In this document: positions 33,801 through 56,728 of the stretch, piece by piece
Position numbering within the stretch: position 1 is the first letter of the stretch
How the letters are laid out: each line of letters begins with the position of its first letter
Assembly (NCBI RefSeq): GCF_013280595.1
Contig: NZ_JAAATY010000011.1
Coordinates: 62,001 to 126,000 of the forward strand
DNA length: 64,000 bases
DNA from: Kibdelosporangium persicum
GTDB lineage: Bacteria > Actinomycetota > Actinomycetes > Mycobacteriales > Pseudonocardiaceae
Direction: 5' to 3'
Translations under genes and position numbers: made by a program
Notes under the pieces: generated by a model
The model's database searches: none
Told to the model about the DNA's origin: nothing
The model's input: only the letters and a program-made list of their open reading frames with translations

Positions 33801-35931
33801 GTCGATCCCGCGGACGCCCGAGCCGGAGGAGATTCCGGCGCCGCCGGACGGCCCGGAAGTCCCGATCCCGCCGGACCCGGACGCCGACCCCCAGCCGGGC
33901 CGTCGCAGGCGGCCGGCCGATCCGGCCGATCCGGACGCCGACCCGTTGACGAAGCCGCGCCCGAGGTTCCCCACCGGCCCGGACATCCCGGCCCCGCCGG
34001 ACCCGGACGCCGACCCCGAGCCCCGGCGTCGCCGGTGGACGTCGGAGTCGGACGCCGAGAACCCACGGGCCCGGCGCCGCGCACTTCCACGCGACCCGTC
34101 GCGGCGTGCGGTGGAACCCGGCGACGACCCGGAGGCGACCGGCCCGCACAGGATGCCCGGTCCCCTTGAGGAACCGGCCTTCTCCAGCCAGATGGACCCG
34201 CCGAAGAGGCCGTCGGACGTCGGCCAGTCCACCGGCCGCCGCCGGATGCCCGATCCCCCGGCGGAGCCGGAAACCGCGGCAGGCCGCAGAAGGGCGCCCG
34301 AGCCGGTCGACGAAGCCCCGTCAACGGCCTCGGGACGCCGACACATGCCCGAACCGGACGAGCCCGAACCAACGGGCCGCTCGGCCCCAGGCGAGTCAAC
34401 AGGCCGCCGCAGAATGCCGGACGCCCTGAGCGATCCTGAGCCGACGGGTCGTCGGCGGATGCCGGATGCCTTGAGTGATCCGGAGTCCACGGGCCGTCGC
34501 CGGATGCCGGAAGTTGTGGACGATCCGGAGTCGACGGGTCGTCGTCGGGTGGCGGATGCCTTGAGTGACCCGGAGCCCATGGGGCGTCGCAAAGTGCCTG
34601 GCTCCACGGACGATCCTGAGTCCACAGGGCGTCGGCGGATGCCGGATGCCCTGAGCGACCCGGAATCGACCGGCCGTCGCCGGATGCCGGAAAACGCGGA
34701 CGATCCTGAGTCGACAGGCCGCCGCAGGGTGGCGGATCTGCTGAAGGGCCTGGAGTCCACGGGACGTCGGCGGATGCCGGGCCTCGCCGATGAAGCGACC
34801 GGCCGCCGCAGGCTGCCCGAACCCGCGGACGATCCTGAGTCCACCGGACGCCGCCGCATGCCGGACGCGGTGGCAGAGGCCGAGCGGCCGAAGCCGGAGT
34901 CCTTGGCGGACAATGCTTCCAGCCAGGCGTTCCCCGGCGCGGTCGAGTCGACCGGGCGACGCCACAAGCCCGAAGACCAGCGTGTGTCACGGACAGAGCC
35001 AGCCGAGCGCACAGATCCCTTGCCCGGCAACGATCCGGCCAAGCCGCGGCTCGGTTTGGACGACATACTGGCCGGTCGTCAGCAGACTGGCGGCGTCCCG
35101 GCCGAGACCGGGCAGCCGGTCGCCAGGCGGTTGCCGGAACCCCTTGGCGTGGAAGAGATCCAGGCCGGGCGCCGGAGGGTGCCCGAGCCGGGCGCGGCGG
35201 AACCGCCCACCAGTCAAACGGTTTCGGAGTCGCCGGGCCTGGACGACGAGCCGGGCGGCCTGCCTGAGCAGTCCTCCCCAGGCGTGCGCCGGACGTCGGA
35301 CTTCGAGTTGCCCGGCGAGGACGTGTCAAGCAGCCGCCGGATTCCCGGGCAGGAGACAGTCCGCCACCCGATGTCAGGACCGCAGTCGCCCCTCCCGGCC
35401 CCCGGACCCGGACAGGCGACGGTTCGCCGTGGCGTGCCGGAAACCCCGGAGGGGACCCGCAAAGCACCGGAGCAGTCCGGCCCGGCCGATCTCGACGACT
35501 TCCCGTCGGCCGGCCGCCGCCTGCCCGGACCGGCTCCCGCGCCGGAGGTCTTCTCGTTGGGGCCGGACGGATTGTCGCGGCGGCGCGCCACGCCCGGGAC
35601 TCCTTCTCCTGAACCGGTTGAGGAAACGATTCAGCCGGCCGCGCTCGACGAGCTGGCCAAGCGGCGGCAGGCCGAACGTGCCGAGCGGCAGGAACGGCTG
35701 CGCAGGCGGGTCGAGCAGTCCGGTGAGGCGACCGGCGACGACCGGCCGAGCCGGCTTCGCCGCCGCGAGCGCACCGACCTGAAGCTGGCCGATTTGCTGG
35801 CGGAAGCCCTTGTCGCGTACCAATCGTCAACGTCCGAGGCGCCCGGTGAGGACGTTCTGTCGGCCTATGAGGACCTGGACGGGGCACCTGGCGAGGACCC
35901 CGGGCGGCACCAGGGTGGAACAGGCTATTGA
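30841..35931 (+). CDS. Very large multidomain protein: TPR-like helices, degenerate GGDEF, and long disordered repeat tail
   Basis: 1696 residues; the GTG abuts the ettA stop. Residues ~20-380 are Ala/Leu-rich TPR-like helices. Residues ~430-570 are low complexity (Gly-rich; TGGGGGGGEGGGGG). Residues ~620-645 hold an AAVD/LAAVD repeat. Residues ~680-860 resemble a diguanylate cyclase (ETGLLNRQGLRRRLAAARRQ; ELAVLLPDTTRDEAEQFAAT; SVSTGVAQYQEGTSEDALLS), but the GGDEF site reads PDDGEL (~777), so it is probably inactive. From ~1000 the chain is Pro/Glu/Arg-rich, with eleven 15-residue repeats (~1186-1348). The role is unknown. It lies between ettA and gdh, where mycobacteria have no such gene. 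Confidence 0.8.
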   Translation: MAVPVTASRKGSWSDGGTTDGELLAGTADRLRWRAPELTLVFARLAATRAGEAKDRALALRANALVVAALVRLGKHAEAVEPAVSALREAETAGERELAGEVRVDLAASTRAVGLAGSAFVLVRPMLEGSDTRPAVRAGALAEIVGGLAQAGRLEVIDEVLSEADRLYAADDMLTGDVRRVLRALLCARIASFRRRWGYPTGAVAAATEGMTLLDGLTDPWTDSGQARAELGLEMVSALLDAGEQTAALGQADQTLTQPVRASSAAAIGRLMLILATRVHFPSGRAREAHALLAEIVRISRRHELDGLLADVLTSLAYAQEADGDLTEALNSLRSARAAEQRRLRADTLARLIVLEELGAGTRLPDDTESLLRRVVRTPARFLPEAPGTEVSSREAASREMSGAQLAGRDIGPGPRPRPTRGSGTYDSVGYERSGRGTESYDLAAAISQDYDTAAAGHSVSERYALAAGPSQDHGLGSEGSQGYDLEGYPIVPGAGYGATSTTSGGTDTRADKGSGGLGSGTAGGSGTGSRTGGGGGGGEGGGGGAPGTSDLAASALGGTSNQDILGRELAGWEMVARERAMDLAGQTRAGSDLVAADRAAPEWAGADPAAVDRVVGRAAVDSAAVDLAAVDGAAVDLAAVESEPDRSATAERPSRPKGKRAADADKPKWPDPSQNERDEETGLLNRQGLRRRLAAARRQSRPTALTLVRLEPSGEADPEPEERKKDPDSTDRFSAALIKAIDTAGRVPPEIDPDVLTSLADHVRDMAPQDAELARPDDGELAVLLPDTTRDEAEQFAATLRETVSASDWDPQDPARGVSVSTGVAQYQEGTSEDALLSAAREALTSTEHDTDRPDWQAVEPVYDLPPEDSGYTYIQEYADLSSDGPDPEMAKYLAAFPLPDYGRQWPAVEQPESPGHDTADTDESGRSILDRLDITRGSGGRRRAPDAFNADQSTDFDQYAIKQPMESYSNTGDEILAAAEEAERASIPRTPEPEEIPAPPDGPEVPIPPDPDADPQPGRRRRPADPADPDADPLTKPRPRFPTGPDIPAPPDPDADPEPRRRRWTSESDAENPRARRRALPRDPSRRAVEPGDDPEATGPHRMPGPLEEPAFSSQMDPPKRPSDVGQSTGRRRMPDPPAEPETAAGRRRAPEPVDEAPSTASGRRHMPEPDEPEPTGRSAPGESTGRRRMPDALSDPEPTGRRRMPDALSDPESTGRRRMPEVVDDPESTGRRRVADALSDPEPMGRRKVPGSTDDPESTGRRRMPDALSDPESTGRRRMPENADDPESTGRRRVADLLKGLESTGRRRMPGLADEATGRRRLPEPADDPESTGRRRMPDAVAEAERPKPESLADNASSQAFPGAVESTGRRHKPEDQRVSRTEPAERTDPLPGNDPAKPRLGLDDILAGRQQTGGVPAETGQPVARRLPEPLGVEEIQAGRRRVPEPGAAEPPTSQTVSESPGLDDEPGGLPEQSSPGVRRTSDFELPGEDVSSSRRIPGQETVRHPMSGPQSPLPAPGPGQATVRRGVPETPEGTRKAPEQSGPADLDDFPSAGRRLPGPAPAPEVFSLGPDGLSRRRATPGTPSPEPVEETIQPAALDELAKRRQAERAERQERLRRRVEQSGEATGDDRPSRLRRRERTDLKLADLLAEALVAYQSSTSEAPGEDVLSAYEDLDGAPGEDPGRHQGGTGY
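34396..34884 (+). repeat. Eleven in-frame ~45-bp repeats (STGRRRMP unit)
   Basis: Tandem units of 15 codons (two of 14) encode STGRRRMPDALSDPE and variants such as PMGRRKVPGSTDDPE and STGRRRVADALSDPE. TGRRR is nearly constant; the second half of the unit alternates acidic and small residues. Most base changes between units are at third codon positions, which points to selection on the peptide. More divergent units flank the array (STGRRRMPDPPAEPE at 34228; ESTGRRHKPEDQ at 34945). Confidence 0.9.
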
Positions 35932-45461: not shown

Positions 45462-45632
45462 CGATCCGATCTTGCAGTGGGGGACGGGTCACGGGCCAGG
45501 TTAGGCGCGCGGCGTTCAACACCCGTTCACGGGGGTTTCGACGAGTTGGGACGTGACACGCATGGCAACACACGTGCGCGAGGGGTGTGGTTTGTGGTCG
45601 ACTATGCCCTGCACCCCGGTGGAGGTGGTCGC

Positions 45633-46307
45633 GTGCCCGACCGAAAACCGACTCCGATCAGCGGCGCGAAATCCGGTGCAACCGGCACCGGAAGCGCGTC
45701 GCTGACAGCGCTGCCTACGCAACTGCCAGTGGCGGAGCAGCGTCCGGCGTCGACAGCATCAACGGGGCCTCCCGTGCCCACAGTGCCGTCGTGGGGTCGT
45801 CGCAGGGTCCTGTTGCTCAATGCCACGTTCGAGCCGCTCACCGCGCTGCCCCTGCGGCGTGCGGTCGTGCTTGTGGTCTGTGGCAAAGCTGAGGTCGTGC
45901 ACGGTGATCCGGCCGGAATGCTGATGCATTCCGCCACGTCGAGCGTGGAGATCCCGTCGGTGATCAGGCTCAGCAACTACGTCCGCGTGCCCTACCGGGG
46001 ACGCGTGCCGTTGACCCGTGCCGGGCTGATGCACCGCGACCGCTACAGATGTGCCTACTGTGGCGGCCGGGCGGAAACTATAGATCATGTCGTGCCGCGC
46101 AGCCGTGGGGGTCCCCACACGTGGCAGAACTGTGTGGCCAGTTGCGCGAAGTGCAACCACAAGAAGGCCGACAAACTGCTGAGCGAGCTGGGCTGGCGGC
46201 TGCGGGTCGTCCCCGCGGCGCCGCGCGGACCGCACTGGCGCCTGCTCGCCGGGGTGGCAGACGCCGATCCGCTGTGGCTGCCCTACCTGGGCGAGCCCGC
46301 CGCGTAG
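45633..46307 (+). CDS. HNH endonuclease family protein
   Basis: 224 residues from the GTG at 45633, chosen because GGAGGTGG lies at 45621-45628; a GTG at 45594 is the alternative. A disordered Ser/Thr/Pro-rich stretch (~1-55) precedes VLLLNATFEPLTALPLRRAV, the family's conserved opening. The HNH core with two zinc-knuckle pairs follows: YRCAYCGGRAETIDHVVPRS, then RGGPHTWQNCVASCAKCNHK. Mycobacteria have the same gene at this place (Rv2469c). The role is not known; it is a broadly conserved chromosomal protein rather than a homing enzyme. Confidence 0.9.
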   Translation: MPDRKPTPISGAKSGATGTGSASLTALPTQLPVAEQRPASTASTGPPVPTVPSWGRRRVLLLNATFEPLTALPLRRAVVLVVCGKAEVVHGDPAGMLMHSATSSVEIPSVIRLSNYVRVPYRGRVPLTRAGLMHRDRYRCAYCGGRAETIDHVVPRSRGGPHTWQNCVASCAKCNHKKADKLLSELGWRLRVVPAAPRGPHWRLLAGVADADPLWLPYLGEPAA

Positions 46308-46315
46308 GCGGCCGT

Positions 46316-46720
46316 TCAGGACGTGACGCGAGTACCCGCGGTGACACGGGTCCCGCGGGTAACGCGGGTGCCCCTGGTCACGCGGGTGCCTTCGCGGGCG
46401 ACGCGAGTACCGGCGGTGACGCGGGTGCCTTCACGCGTCACACGGGTGCCTTCACGAGTGACCCGCGTACCTGACGTAACCCGAGTGCCGCGCGTCACTC
46501 GCGTGCCCCTGGTGACGCGGGTTCCGCAGGTGACCCGCGTACCTTCGGCGCAGGCGGTCACGCGGGTTCCCCGGGTGACTCGGGTGACTCGGGTGCCACG
46601 AGTGACCCGTGTGCCGCTGGTGATCAGCGCGGTGACACGGGTTCCCTCGGCATACCCATCACACAATGCAGCGAACTGAGCGTCGATCATCGCCTGATCG
46701 GGGGTCGGCATCGGGGTCAT
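46316..46720 (-). CDS. Tandem GTRVT-repeat protein, unknown
   Basis: 134 residues from the ATG at 46720, which has a strong GAGGAGG seven bases upstream. A unique ~25-residue N terminus (MTPMPTPDQAMIDAQFAALC) is followed by 16 copies of GTRV[TA], spaced mostly 6 residues apart (7 when a Glu is inserted, as in REGTRVT; two longer gaps ALITS and ACAE). The product is very basic, without signal peptide or membrane helix. Variation between units is at wobble positions. The plus strand is also open here and reads VTRVP repeats, but lacks a good ribosome site. I know no family for it. Confidence 0.7.
   Translation of the reverse strand: MTPMPTPDQAMIDAQFAALCDGYAEGTRVTALITSGTRVTRGTRVTRVTRGTRVTACAEGTRVTCGTRVTRGTRVTRGTRVTSGTRVTREGTRVTREGTRVTAGTRVAREGTRVTRGTRVTRGTRVTAGTRVTS
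46319..46645. repeat. Degenerate 18-bp tandem repeat (GTGACGCGGGTNCC core)
   Basis: About 16 units, period 18 bp with occasional 21-bp or longer units, each a variant of GTGACGCGGGTGCC on the plus strand. Both strands stay open because the period is a multiple of three. The wobble positions of the two strands coincide, so synonymous drift in GTRVT (minus) is also synonymous in VTRVP (plus). Confidence 0.9.
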
Positions 46721-47116
46721 GTCGGGGCCTCCTCGTGACTGACAAGTGAGAAGTAGTGCTTCGAGCGGGGTCCGCAAGGTCCGTACAGGTGAAAGTTATG
46801 GGTGATCGAACAAACCCGCAAGCCGTCAACTCGGTCCAACCGTTCGGTTCGGGATCGATGCGGCCGTTCGCCACCACGGACTCGGCCGGGCGCTGGACAG
46901 TACCGGCAGGCACTTGGCGCATACGGATTACCAAGGCCGCAGGACATGCGACTGTCCGGAATCGGAACGCTCCCAGTCAGTGACACATCCCCGGTGACAC
47001 ACAACCGGGCGGCACATTCCGGTGGAACATCACCGGTGACACATCCAGTGGCTCGCTGACCGGCCCTCAGCCGGGGTCGACGCTCCCCGGTGGAGGAGGT
47101 CGGTTACCTTTAGCGC
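46721..47116. other. 396-bp region without a convincing gene; GTGACACA repeats
   Basis: This gap holds the upstream region of the GTRVT gene on its left and of the ctaJ-like gene on its right. A short frame (46798-46983, MGDRTNPQAVNSVQPFGSGS...) has low third-position GC and is not accepted. GTGACACA occurs three times (46980-46987, 46994-47001, 47036-47043), the last inside a perfect palindrome TCACCGGTGA (47030-47039). TACCTT (47105-47110) is a likely -10 for a leaderless ctaJ-like transcript. Confidence 0.5.
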
Positions 47117-47368
47117 GTGAGCCCGGTCGAGACAGTTCTCGTCTTCGTAGTGATCCCGGCGGCCATCTATGGCGCCGTGGCGTTGCTGACGCTGCGCGAG
47201 CGTGCCGCCAAGACCCCGAGGTACCGGCCAGGGCAGGACTGGGACTACCCGCCTGTCTGGTGGACCGCCAACCCCGCGGGAGTGGCGCAGCCGGTGCGCT
47301 CGACAGACGAGGAAGACGCCGCGCAGTACGCGCGGACCGCTTGGGGAGGTGCCCGTGGCAGCTGGTGA
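47117..47368 (+). CDS. ctaJ: Small single-span protein, aa3 cytochrome oxidase subunit CtaJ-like
   Basis: 83 residues. One N-terminal membrane helix (VETVLVFVVIPAAIYGAVAL) is followed by the motif YRPGQDWDYPPVWWTANP, which I associate with CtaJ, a small subunit of the actinobacterial cytochrome aa3 oxidase, and an acidic/aromatic tail (DEEDAAQYARTAWGGARGSW). The GTG lies just after a TACCTT -10 element, so the mRNA may be leaderless. It overlaps the DUF5130 gene by 14 bp. The CtaJ name is from memory of the motif; a general actinobacterial membrane protein is the fallback. Confidence 0.65.
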   Translation: MSPVETVLVFVVIPAAIYGAVALLTLRERAAKTPRYRPGQDWDYPPVWWTANPAGVAQPVRSTDEEDAAQYARTAWGGARGSW

Positions 47369-56063: not shown

Positions 56064-56334
56064 CCCCTCACCCACCACCACCACCACCTCGCCACCTCGC
56101 CCCACCCCATTGGCACCCCACCCCACTCCAGCACCTGGCACCCCGCCCGGGCTCCGACACCCCGCCCGGCTCCGGCCCACCTGGTGTCTCGCCCGCTCCG
56201 GCACCTGGCACACCACCCGCTCCAGCCCGCCTGGTGCGTCGCCCCGCTCCCGCCCGCTGTCCAATGCGCCACCCCACGCCTGCCCCTGCCACCGCTCCGC
56301 GAAACGCGCACTCCAACACCGCGTGTCCGCCACT

Positions 56335-56410
56335 CCGGCACCGCGAAGTGCACTCTCCGGCACCACGAAATGCACTTTCCGGCACCATGAAATGCACTTT
56401 GCGGCACCGA
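56335..56410. repeat. 22-bp tandem repeat, three units plus a partial fourth
   Basis: Units 56335-56356, 56357-56378 and 56379-56400 share CCGGCACCRYGAARTGCACT plus two bases; the fourth starts GCGGCACCGA at 56401. A degenerate copy may lie at about 56290-56312. Differences are only a few bases per unit, so the array is young. It is not in a gene. Confidence 0.88.
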
Positions 56411-56475
56411 GAATTCTCCGCTGCTGCGCCTGAAACCGCATTCAGAACTCAGTCCACCCCGAGCACAGCATTCGT

Positions 56476-56538
56476 CACTCTGCACTCAACATTCAGCACT
56501 CTGCACTCAGCATGCTGAATTCTGAATTCAGAGTGCAG
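56476..56538. repeat. 21-bp duplication followed by an interrupted palindrome
   Basis: CACTCTGCACTCAACATTCA... (56476-56496) is followed at once by a near copy (56497-56517). Then comes CTGAATTC-T-GAATTCAG (56515-56531), a perfect 8-bp inverted repeat around one base, and AGTGCAG, which pairs with the CTGCACT of the duplicated unit. The whole could fold into a long hairpin. Confidence 0.8.
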
Positions 56539-56693
56539 CGCTCAATCTTCAGGATGCTCCGGCGCGGGCCCCAGCCGTCACCGTAGGCCGCGCCGTAGCC
56601 CTCACCGCAGCGGTCACCCAGCGGTCGCCCAGCCTCGGCTCATCCTCGTGGCCTTGAAAGATCACCGAGCCGCCCTGAGCCGCCGCAGTCCTG

Positions 56694-56728
56694 CATTCAG
56701 CATTCAGGGTTCAGCATTCAGGGTTCAG
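56694..56728. repeat. Heptanucleotide repeat (CATTCAG/GGTTCAG, five units)
   Basis: Five consecutive 7-bp units: CATTCAG, CATTCAG, GGTTCAG, CATTCAG, GGTTCAG. ATTCAG also occurs in the palindrome block 180 bp to the left, so the two blocks may share an origin. Confidence 0.85.

Follow-up and report, generated by a model that had tools for sequence, protein, structure and literature searches.

A GTRVT-repeat gene at a single syntenic locus of the Pseudonocardiaceae, with a unit that appears near-uniform within each protein and replaced wholesale between genera

We analyze a repeat gene in a 64,000-nucleotide stretch of the Kibdelosporangium persicum genome (contig NZ_JAAATY010000011.1, positions 62,001 to 126,000; this whole stretch is 'the window'). 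The gene lies on the minus strand at 46316..46720, runs from an ATG start to a stop at 46318-46316, and encodes a 134-residue protein: a head of 25 residues (46646..46720) followed by an array of 16 GTRV[TA] pentads (46322..46645), 15 of them GTRVT and one GTRVA. The spacers between units are mostly one or two residues long (R, A, S, C, RE), with a few longer. A ribosome binding site, GAGGAGG (46728..46734, minus strand), stands 7 nt before the ATG; similar sites occur in 80 relatives, and intact frames at 80 orthologous loci. An earlier sequence-only reading of this DNA had described the same frame, head, units and ribosome site, all of which we find as stated, and it had recognized no family, in agreement with our finding that none of the curated Pfam and NCBIfam families scores above its cut-off for the protein. 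Two plus-strand genes flank it, a convergent HNH endonuclease gene (45477..46307) and the divergent ctaJ (47117..47368), which encodes a subunit of aa3-type cytochrome oxidase; the synteny of both is kept in relatives. The repeat gene is single-copy in the 10.35 Mb genome, and Tandem Repeats Finder picks up its array, at 71-77% matches, as DNA repeats that have diverged. Searching the listings of PubMed Central with the unit strings and with the leader element described below, we found no paper on this repeat family.

The array is not a chance occurrence, because homologous arrays are present in all eight genomes of the genus (its own included) and in 110 of 297 Pseudonocardiaceae genomes searched with the GTRVT query at E<=1e-8. 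Queries with two other units found at the same locus, SVRIT and GVRIS, match 82 and 94 of 294 genomes of the family, respectively; all of these censuses are samples (297 genomes for GTRVT, 294 each for SVRIT and GVRIS, 287 for the leader element). Class-wide searches return GTRVT matches in 4 non-family genomes of 394 and GVRIS matches in 2 of 384, and these matches (L098-L101, L206, L207, L210) were judged unrelated on inspection; L100, for example, is a serine/threonine kinase with a DGTRVL repeat in its linker, similar in letters and apparently unrelated. Over 99 fetched loci, which represent 87 distinct genes (one locus, L117, was oriented by its antisense array), the window's arrangement is kept for ctaJ in 99, for the HNH gene in 96, for MscS in 97 and for PepN in 92. 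From these sequence comparisons we conclude that the gene belongs to an undescribed, Pseudonocardiaceae-specific family at a single syntenic locus between the HNH endonuclease gene and ctaJ. One fetched locus, L017 (JOAA01000003.1), carries the title Rhodococcus rhodnii NRRL B-16535 and yet is of the locus type of the window's genus, with repeat protein and contig position identical to those of a same-genus genome (G005, locus L003); the title is probably a mislabel.

Which strand is the coding one can be read from the codons. The plus strand is open as well, over a frame of 118 residues with a GTG start (46323..46679) that reads VTRVP repeats, and the sequence-only reading rightly observed that the wobble positions of the two strands coincide: a codon XYN reads Y'X'N in the antisense frame, which exchanges V with T and G with P and returns R for R and A for A. 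It follows from the same logic that a plus-strand stop can arise only from a minus-strand H or Q codon (CAN) or a Y codon (TAN), and the units contain none of these. For 81 orthologous frames (80 fetched loci plus the window, taking at each locus the stop-to-stop frame richest in units) we find no inner stop in any; 80 terminate in a stop, and the remaining one, L094, reaches the end of its contig first. The number of GTRVT units per gene ranges from 11 to 60, and no further units turn up within 600 bases of the called frames, so that the frame-breaking unit number the sequence-only reading had considered is not seen. With coding units head to tail and a frame kept while the copy number changes, this is an intragenic tandem-repeat protein, its translation being deduced from selection. 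The Arg codon separates the strands: among 1509 exact GTRVT units it is CGN in 1360 and AGR in 149, and an AGR unit becomes VTLVP when read from the plus strand. Its counterpart in the minus-strand peptide, GTLVT, is absent from the one-off unit variants. Because VTLVP is present and GTLVT unseen, the peptide that is kept is the one on the minus strand, which is, judged by these substitutions, the coding strand.

Dual coding, in which both strands would encode proteins, draws on the fact that 75 of the 81 genes, the window's included, have an open wobble-aligned antisense frame. However, a simulation based on protein sequence and codon usage predicts 76.7 open frames of 81 by chance, 149 units read VTLVP, and the antisense frame is open in only 12 of 32 SVRIT genes and 9 of 31 GVRIS genes (closed in 20 and 22). 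On these three grounds we reject it, with scarcely any probability left to it, and the antisense repeat that the sequence-only reading had raised as a second feature becomes a by-product of the protein and its codons rather than a gene. Codon choice can thus produce an open antisense frame such as VTRVP as a side effect.

Tandem repeats usually decay or become homogenized at the DNA level, and this array does neither. Across equal-length pairs of relatives, the ratio of nonsynonymous to synonymous differences per site (pN/pS) is 0.060 for the array and 0.91 for the head, computed on 84 of 93 pairs after the nine with an array pN above 0.1 were dropped as misaligned, a step that lowers pN. The head is therefore a nearly neutral sequence. 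It measures 25 residues in 65 of the 81 genes, and the homologues in relatives that the sequence-only reading had proposed looking for do exist. The codons of adjacent units are no more alike than those of shuffled ones (z of -0.27 for GTRVT, 0.25 for SVRIT and 0.19 for GVRIS), and exact units outnumber one-off variants by 1618 to 22 in GTRVT, 598 to 2 in SVRIT and 703 to 26 in GVRIS arrays, counted by exact match, so that badly decayed units inside spacers are missed. With adjacent codons randomized and units near-invariant, peptide identity would be owed to selection rather than to recent duplication, and we conclude from the substitution patterns that the units within one protein are kept identical at the peptide level by selection.

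Could the array instead act as DNA or RNA, as a selfish minisatellite, a protein-binding array or a structured RNA that is open merely by chance? The DNA of the unit, read from the window sequence, is a near-palindrome and the copy number varies, as such an element might show, but the wobble positions are randomized while first and second codon positions are fixed, AGR and CGN exchange in a way that preserves Arg, and the remaining unit types share the peptide pattern. Predicted RNA structure falls a little short of that of synonymous shuffles (mean z +1.0 over 34 genes, from a sample of every second of 80 loci and genes of up to 520 nt only), and the two Rfam matches, mir-933 and a Pyrobaculum sRNA, fall far under their cut-offs. 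We reject a DNA- or RNA-level element on the Rfam scores, the shuffles, the pN/pS ratio and the randomized codons, and consider it very improbable. The sequence-only reading's suggestion of a selfish minisatellite caught in a gene is not supported, in view of the contrast between array and head and of the single syntenic locus. A mobile element is likewise rejected, since that locus is syntenic and searches of phage and plasmid sequences with the window protein gave no match. PADLOC run on three proteins of the repeat family returned no hit, and PHROGs, for three family proteins, returned a single weak match, to a head decoration protein, for L128 only (E 0.0042).

Now we consider what happens to the unit between genera. 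We read the gap between the HNH gene and ctaJ in 20 genomes, each of a different genus, that lack a GTRVT hit, with gene ends taken from BLAST alignments, and in 16 of them an array lies at the same place and on the same strand. These arrays are of SVRIT (L124, L126, L127, L128, L135), GVRIS (L129, L131, L134, L136, L141), GVRIH (L130, L132), GVRIE (L133), GIRVT (L140), GVRVN with three units (L123) and, in one short array, GTRVT itself (L125). In three further genomes (L137-L139) the gap of 60-127 bp is too small for the gene while HNH and ctaJ persist; in L142, also one of the 20, the region was not resolved. GTRIT units occur in L121, a genome outside this set. All unit types (GTRVT, SVRIT, GVRIS, GVRIH, GVRIE, GVRVN, GVRVT, GTRIT and GIRVT) fit one pattern, [GS][TVI]R[VI][TSEHN], and relatives encode from 3 to 60 near-identical pentads. 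On a tree of three flanking proteins from 49 taxa, from which L142 was dropped for missing data, the SVRIT genomes group together except L135, four of the five GVRIS genomes group, and so do those with GVRIH; GTRVT falls in more than one group, with weak support at depth. The swaps that distinguish genera are near-absent inside arrays: in GTRVT and SVRIT arrays we see no V/I at position 4, T/S at position 5 or G/S at position 1, and T>I at position 2, the GIRVT change, is seen a single time, in a GTRVT array. In GVRIS arrays, however, I>V is found six times and G>S three times. Taking these sequence data together, we are close to certain that the gene is real, that its antisense frame is a by-product, that the family occupies a single locus, and that the unit is near-uniform inside a protein but swapped wholesale between genera.

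The charge of the array bears on an idea of the sequence-only reading, that so basic a repeat could bind nucleic acid or a polymer. An Arg stands in each unit type and the GTRVT and GVRIS arrays are basic, with median net charges per 100 residues of +15.4 (88 genes) and +13.0 (31 genes), but the SVRIT orthologues, at the same locus and with the same leader element, have a median of -2.8 (32 genes). Because the medians differ between unit types, charge is not the conserved property; we reject charge-driven binding as the function of the family and think a role in binding nucleic acid or polyanions improbable, though less so than a role as DNA or RNA.

Upstream of the gene the unit types share a second conserved feature. 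A leader element, TTTCACCTGTACGG, lies at 46781..46794 (minus strand) and continues downstream as.CCTTGC; it is the only exact copy in its own genome and is conserved over all unit types except GIRVT. It is found within 3 mismatches of 14 upstream of 156 of the 157 genes scored, the GIRVT gene being the sole exception (one GVRIS gene lies too near the end of its locus for scoring), while a reversed-motif control has at least 4 mismatches in all 157. The element stands mostly 56-61 nt before the start codon, and 38-39 nt before it in 23 of 32 SVRIT genes. A sequence model of it matches 221 of 287 family genomes in 38 of 46 genera, with a second match in two of the 221. We used it for a prediction: four element-positive genomes that none of the three unit queries had matched were read below the element, and units of the pattern stand there in every case, in two genomes as the new type GVRVT; another of the four, G053 (GVRIH), is of the same genus as one of the loci read before. 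Shared synteny and the shared leader element are the reasons for which we treat the unit types as orthologous. A putative promoter, TTGCGG-N17-TAACTT (46793..46821, minus strand), overlaps the start of the leader element; it was read by position and by conservation (family consensus TTGT..-TA[GA]CTT), and a scan with a strict promoter consensus did not find it. The L140 GIRVT array, which has no leader element, looks freshly expanded, with a z of 3.3 for codon sharing between adjacent units and 4.2 of 5 codons shared by neighbors, and may be an independent re-invention at the same locus.

Many members of the family also share an ending. Of 158 distinct genes, 74 end in LA[AG] (GTRVT 37, SVRIT 32, GVRIS 3, GVRIH 1, GTRIT 1), with tails such as CQSDYALAA, CRSEYALAA, GRSEYALAA and RQNDFSLAA. 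These resemble the SsrA tags encoded by the transfer-messenger RNAs (tmRNAs) of the family, which end in ALAA in all 14 genomes read (for example AKANSQRDYALAA and AEPKSQREFALAA), and the gene ends in LA[AG] in 9 of the 12 genomes where both tag and gene were read. The tail differs from a true tag in being encoded in the gene itself and not added by tmRNA, and it is not an exact copy of the tag of its own genome. SsrA tags direct proteins to Clp proteases. By this analogy the C-terminal tail would make the protein a Clp substrate in many lineages, and the tailed members are probably short-lived and regulated. The window gene ends in GTRVTS and, like the seven other members of its genus, has no such tail, that is, no C-terminal LAA after an SsrA-like stretch.

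Such a tail would fit a multivalent docking array, in which each pentad is a short linear motif for one protein partner that is titrated or clustered, perhaps delivered to Clp proteases by the tail, and whose changing groove the unit follows. All five positions are near-invariant while spacers are free and spacing variable, and the unit is largely clade-fixed, as this explanation would have it. But no partner gene was identified, the neighbors HNH and ctaJ are still there in L137-L139, which have no repeat gene, and the profile matches given below, though weak, favor strand stacking; we regard docking as unlikely, if still a serious contender. The free spacers and nearly neutral head could also belong to a precursor from which many small peptides, modified or signalling, are released, the copies being identical within a protein and different between genera. 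However, most GTRVT spacers are a single varied residue (of 1473, R 741, A 256, M 117, C 87) with no common cleavage site, and three of the five neighbors tested for synteny, HNH, MscS and CtaJ, have recognized, unrelated roles, the wider surroundings not having been searched for modification genes. We consider a precursor improbable, slightly more so than nucleic-acid binding.

The reading that we prefer starts from the alternation within the unit, in which an aliphatic residue or Thr fills positions 2 and 4, and positions 1, 3 and 5 are small, Arg and polar. Each pentad could be an amphipathic beta-strand with positions 2 and 4 facing inward and Arg and the polar residues facing outward, each spacer a turn, and the protein would fold, or co-assemble, into a beta-helical rod with a length given by the number of units. 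The profile searches point weakly this way, among spurious hits brought on by the repeats. All 11 PDB matches of the GTRVT profile at E<=1 are enzymes that we take to be left-handed beta-helices (best 0.0073), as are 8 of 9 matches at E<=3 of a single GTRVT sequence, compared with 0 of 4 for a unit-scrambled control and two to four of 10 for a reversed one. The five SVRIT proteins scanned (L124, L126, L128, L135, L148) all pass the Pfam cut-off for DUF2345 (PF10106), at best with 4.5e-24, a cut-off unreached by reversed and scrambled controls of one SVRIT protein; L129 (GVRIS) and L133 (GVRIE) fall just below it, and the window protein is not matched by this model. Among solved structures the best matches of the SVRIT profile are VgrG spikes, presumably beta-helical (0.0016 and 0.0066; with five sequences 0.24 and 0.41), and a mixed GVRIS/GVRIE/GIRVT profile matches a tail fibre (9.7e-7) and VgrG. 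Of the Hexapep and other left-handed-helix Pfam models, none scores above its gathering score for the window protein and three GTRVT relatives; a GVRIE relative reaches 26.6 for Hexapep against a cut-off of 27.0, and LbH_EIF2B is listed for 1 of 56 family members (E 0.0075). AlphaFold2, which is unreliable for perfect repeats, models L071, a regular relative, as a solenoid with strands every 6 residues.

Several results weigh against the rod. The reversed and scrambled controls reach a lower best E-value than the forward GTRVT search, and because both controls beat it, the class of the hits and not their E-value is the evidence. Several evidently unrelated Pfam families also pass for the SVRIT proteins; with a purer GVRIS profile the tail fibre is gone and VgrG kept (6.5e-4), with the low-complexity eS21 ranked first; AlphaFold2 gives no confident solenoid for the window protein; and neither Foldseek nor a further fold search finds a confident match, families unlisted there not thereby being excluded. 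Pratt et al. 2025 (PMC11795689) report that AlphaFold2 over-predicts solenoids for perfect repeats. A clean 18-residue coil in the pattern of Arg spacers is also rejected, the z of the autocorrelation being -10.6, +5.1 and +4.0 at lags 2, 3 and 4 but no more than +0.9 at lag 6. For these controls, the unrelated Pfam matches, the AlphaFold2 caveat and the lack of a confident fold match we hold the rod as tentative, and that 46316-46720 is a vertically inherited protein-coding gene whose product builds such a rod has, as a joint claim from sequence and model, somewhat less than an even chance.

Likeness to known folds is partial in each case. The hexapeptide pattern of bacterial transferases has [STAV], [LIV] and [GAED] positions, and GTRVTx shares the period of 6 of left-handed beta-helix proteins (LpxA, LpxD, DapD, GlmU, gamma-carbonic-anhydrase-like), with T at [STAV] and V at [LIV]; it differs in having T where [GAED] is usual and in units that are identical where theirs are degenerate, and four GTRVT members scanned singly have no Pfam family above cut-off. 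The DUF2345 domain sits C-terminal to the gp27/gp5 core of VgrG, in the beta-helix of type VI secretion spikes. The five SVRIT proteins scanned, with a period of 8-9, pass its cut-off, but SVRIT proteins are 143-294 residues of head, array and tail, no VgrG core is among the Pfam matches, and no secretion gene is among the five neighbors tested for synteny. Pentapeptide repeat proteins (MfpA, Qnr, HetL) follow the pattern A(D/N)LXX, which is absent here; Z is within noise, and no Pentapeptide Pfam model matched in the scans of the window protein or its relatives.

What the rod would add is a proposed reason for the uniformity of the units. In a beta-helix with like-on-like stacking, ladders of identical residues would run along the rod, which may be why GTRVT and SVRIT arrays hold almost no conservative swaps, although the same swaps set other genera apart. 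A stronger version, which we think rather unlikely, is a beta-helical fibre that templates itself and whose rungs must all match one another. The rung sequence would then be a lineage-specific assembly code that could be rewritten only as a whole; unit number would set the length and, in many lineages, the SsrA-like tail encoded in the gene would set the lifetime. If true, this would be a length-tunable intracellular filament of bacteria, and we know of no counterpart of this kind. With silent sites randomized, a near-perfect peptide and whole-unit replacement at a fixed locus, the family is a natural experiment on why repeat units must match, and it supplies matched and mismatched unit sets for testing homotypic stacking versus co-evolution with a partner.

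The window holds other repeats. Between the repeat gene and ctaJ, at 46980-47046, are about five copies of 14-mers like GTGACACATCCCCG. Another coding tandem repeat, with a 15-residue unit like ESTGRRRMPDALSDP, lies at 34393-34780 (plus strand) inside a frame of 1696 residues, where long antisense frames are open too. At 56139-56728, short tandem repeats with units of 14-24 bp, for example CTCCGGCACCACGAAATGCACT, cluster within 600 bp.
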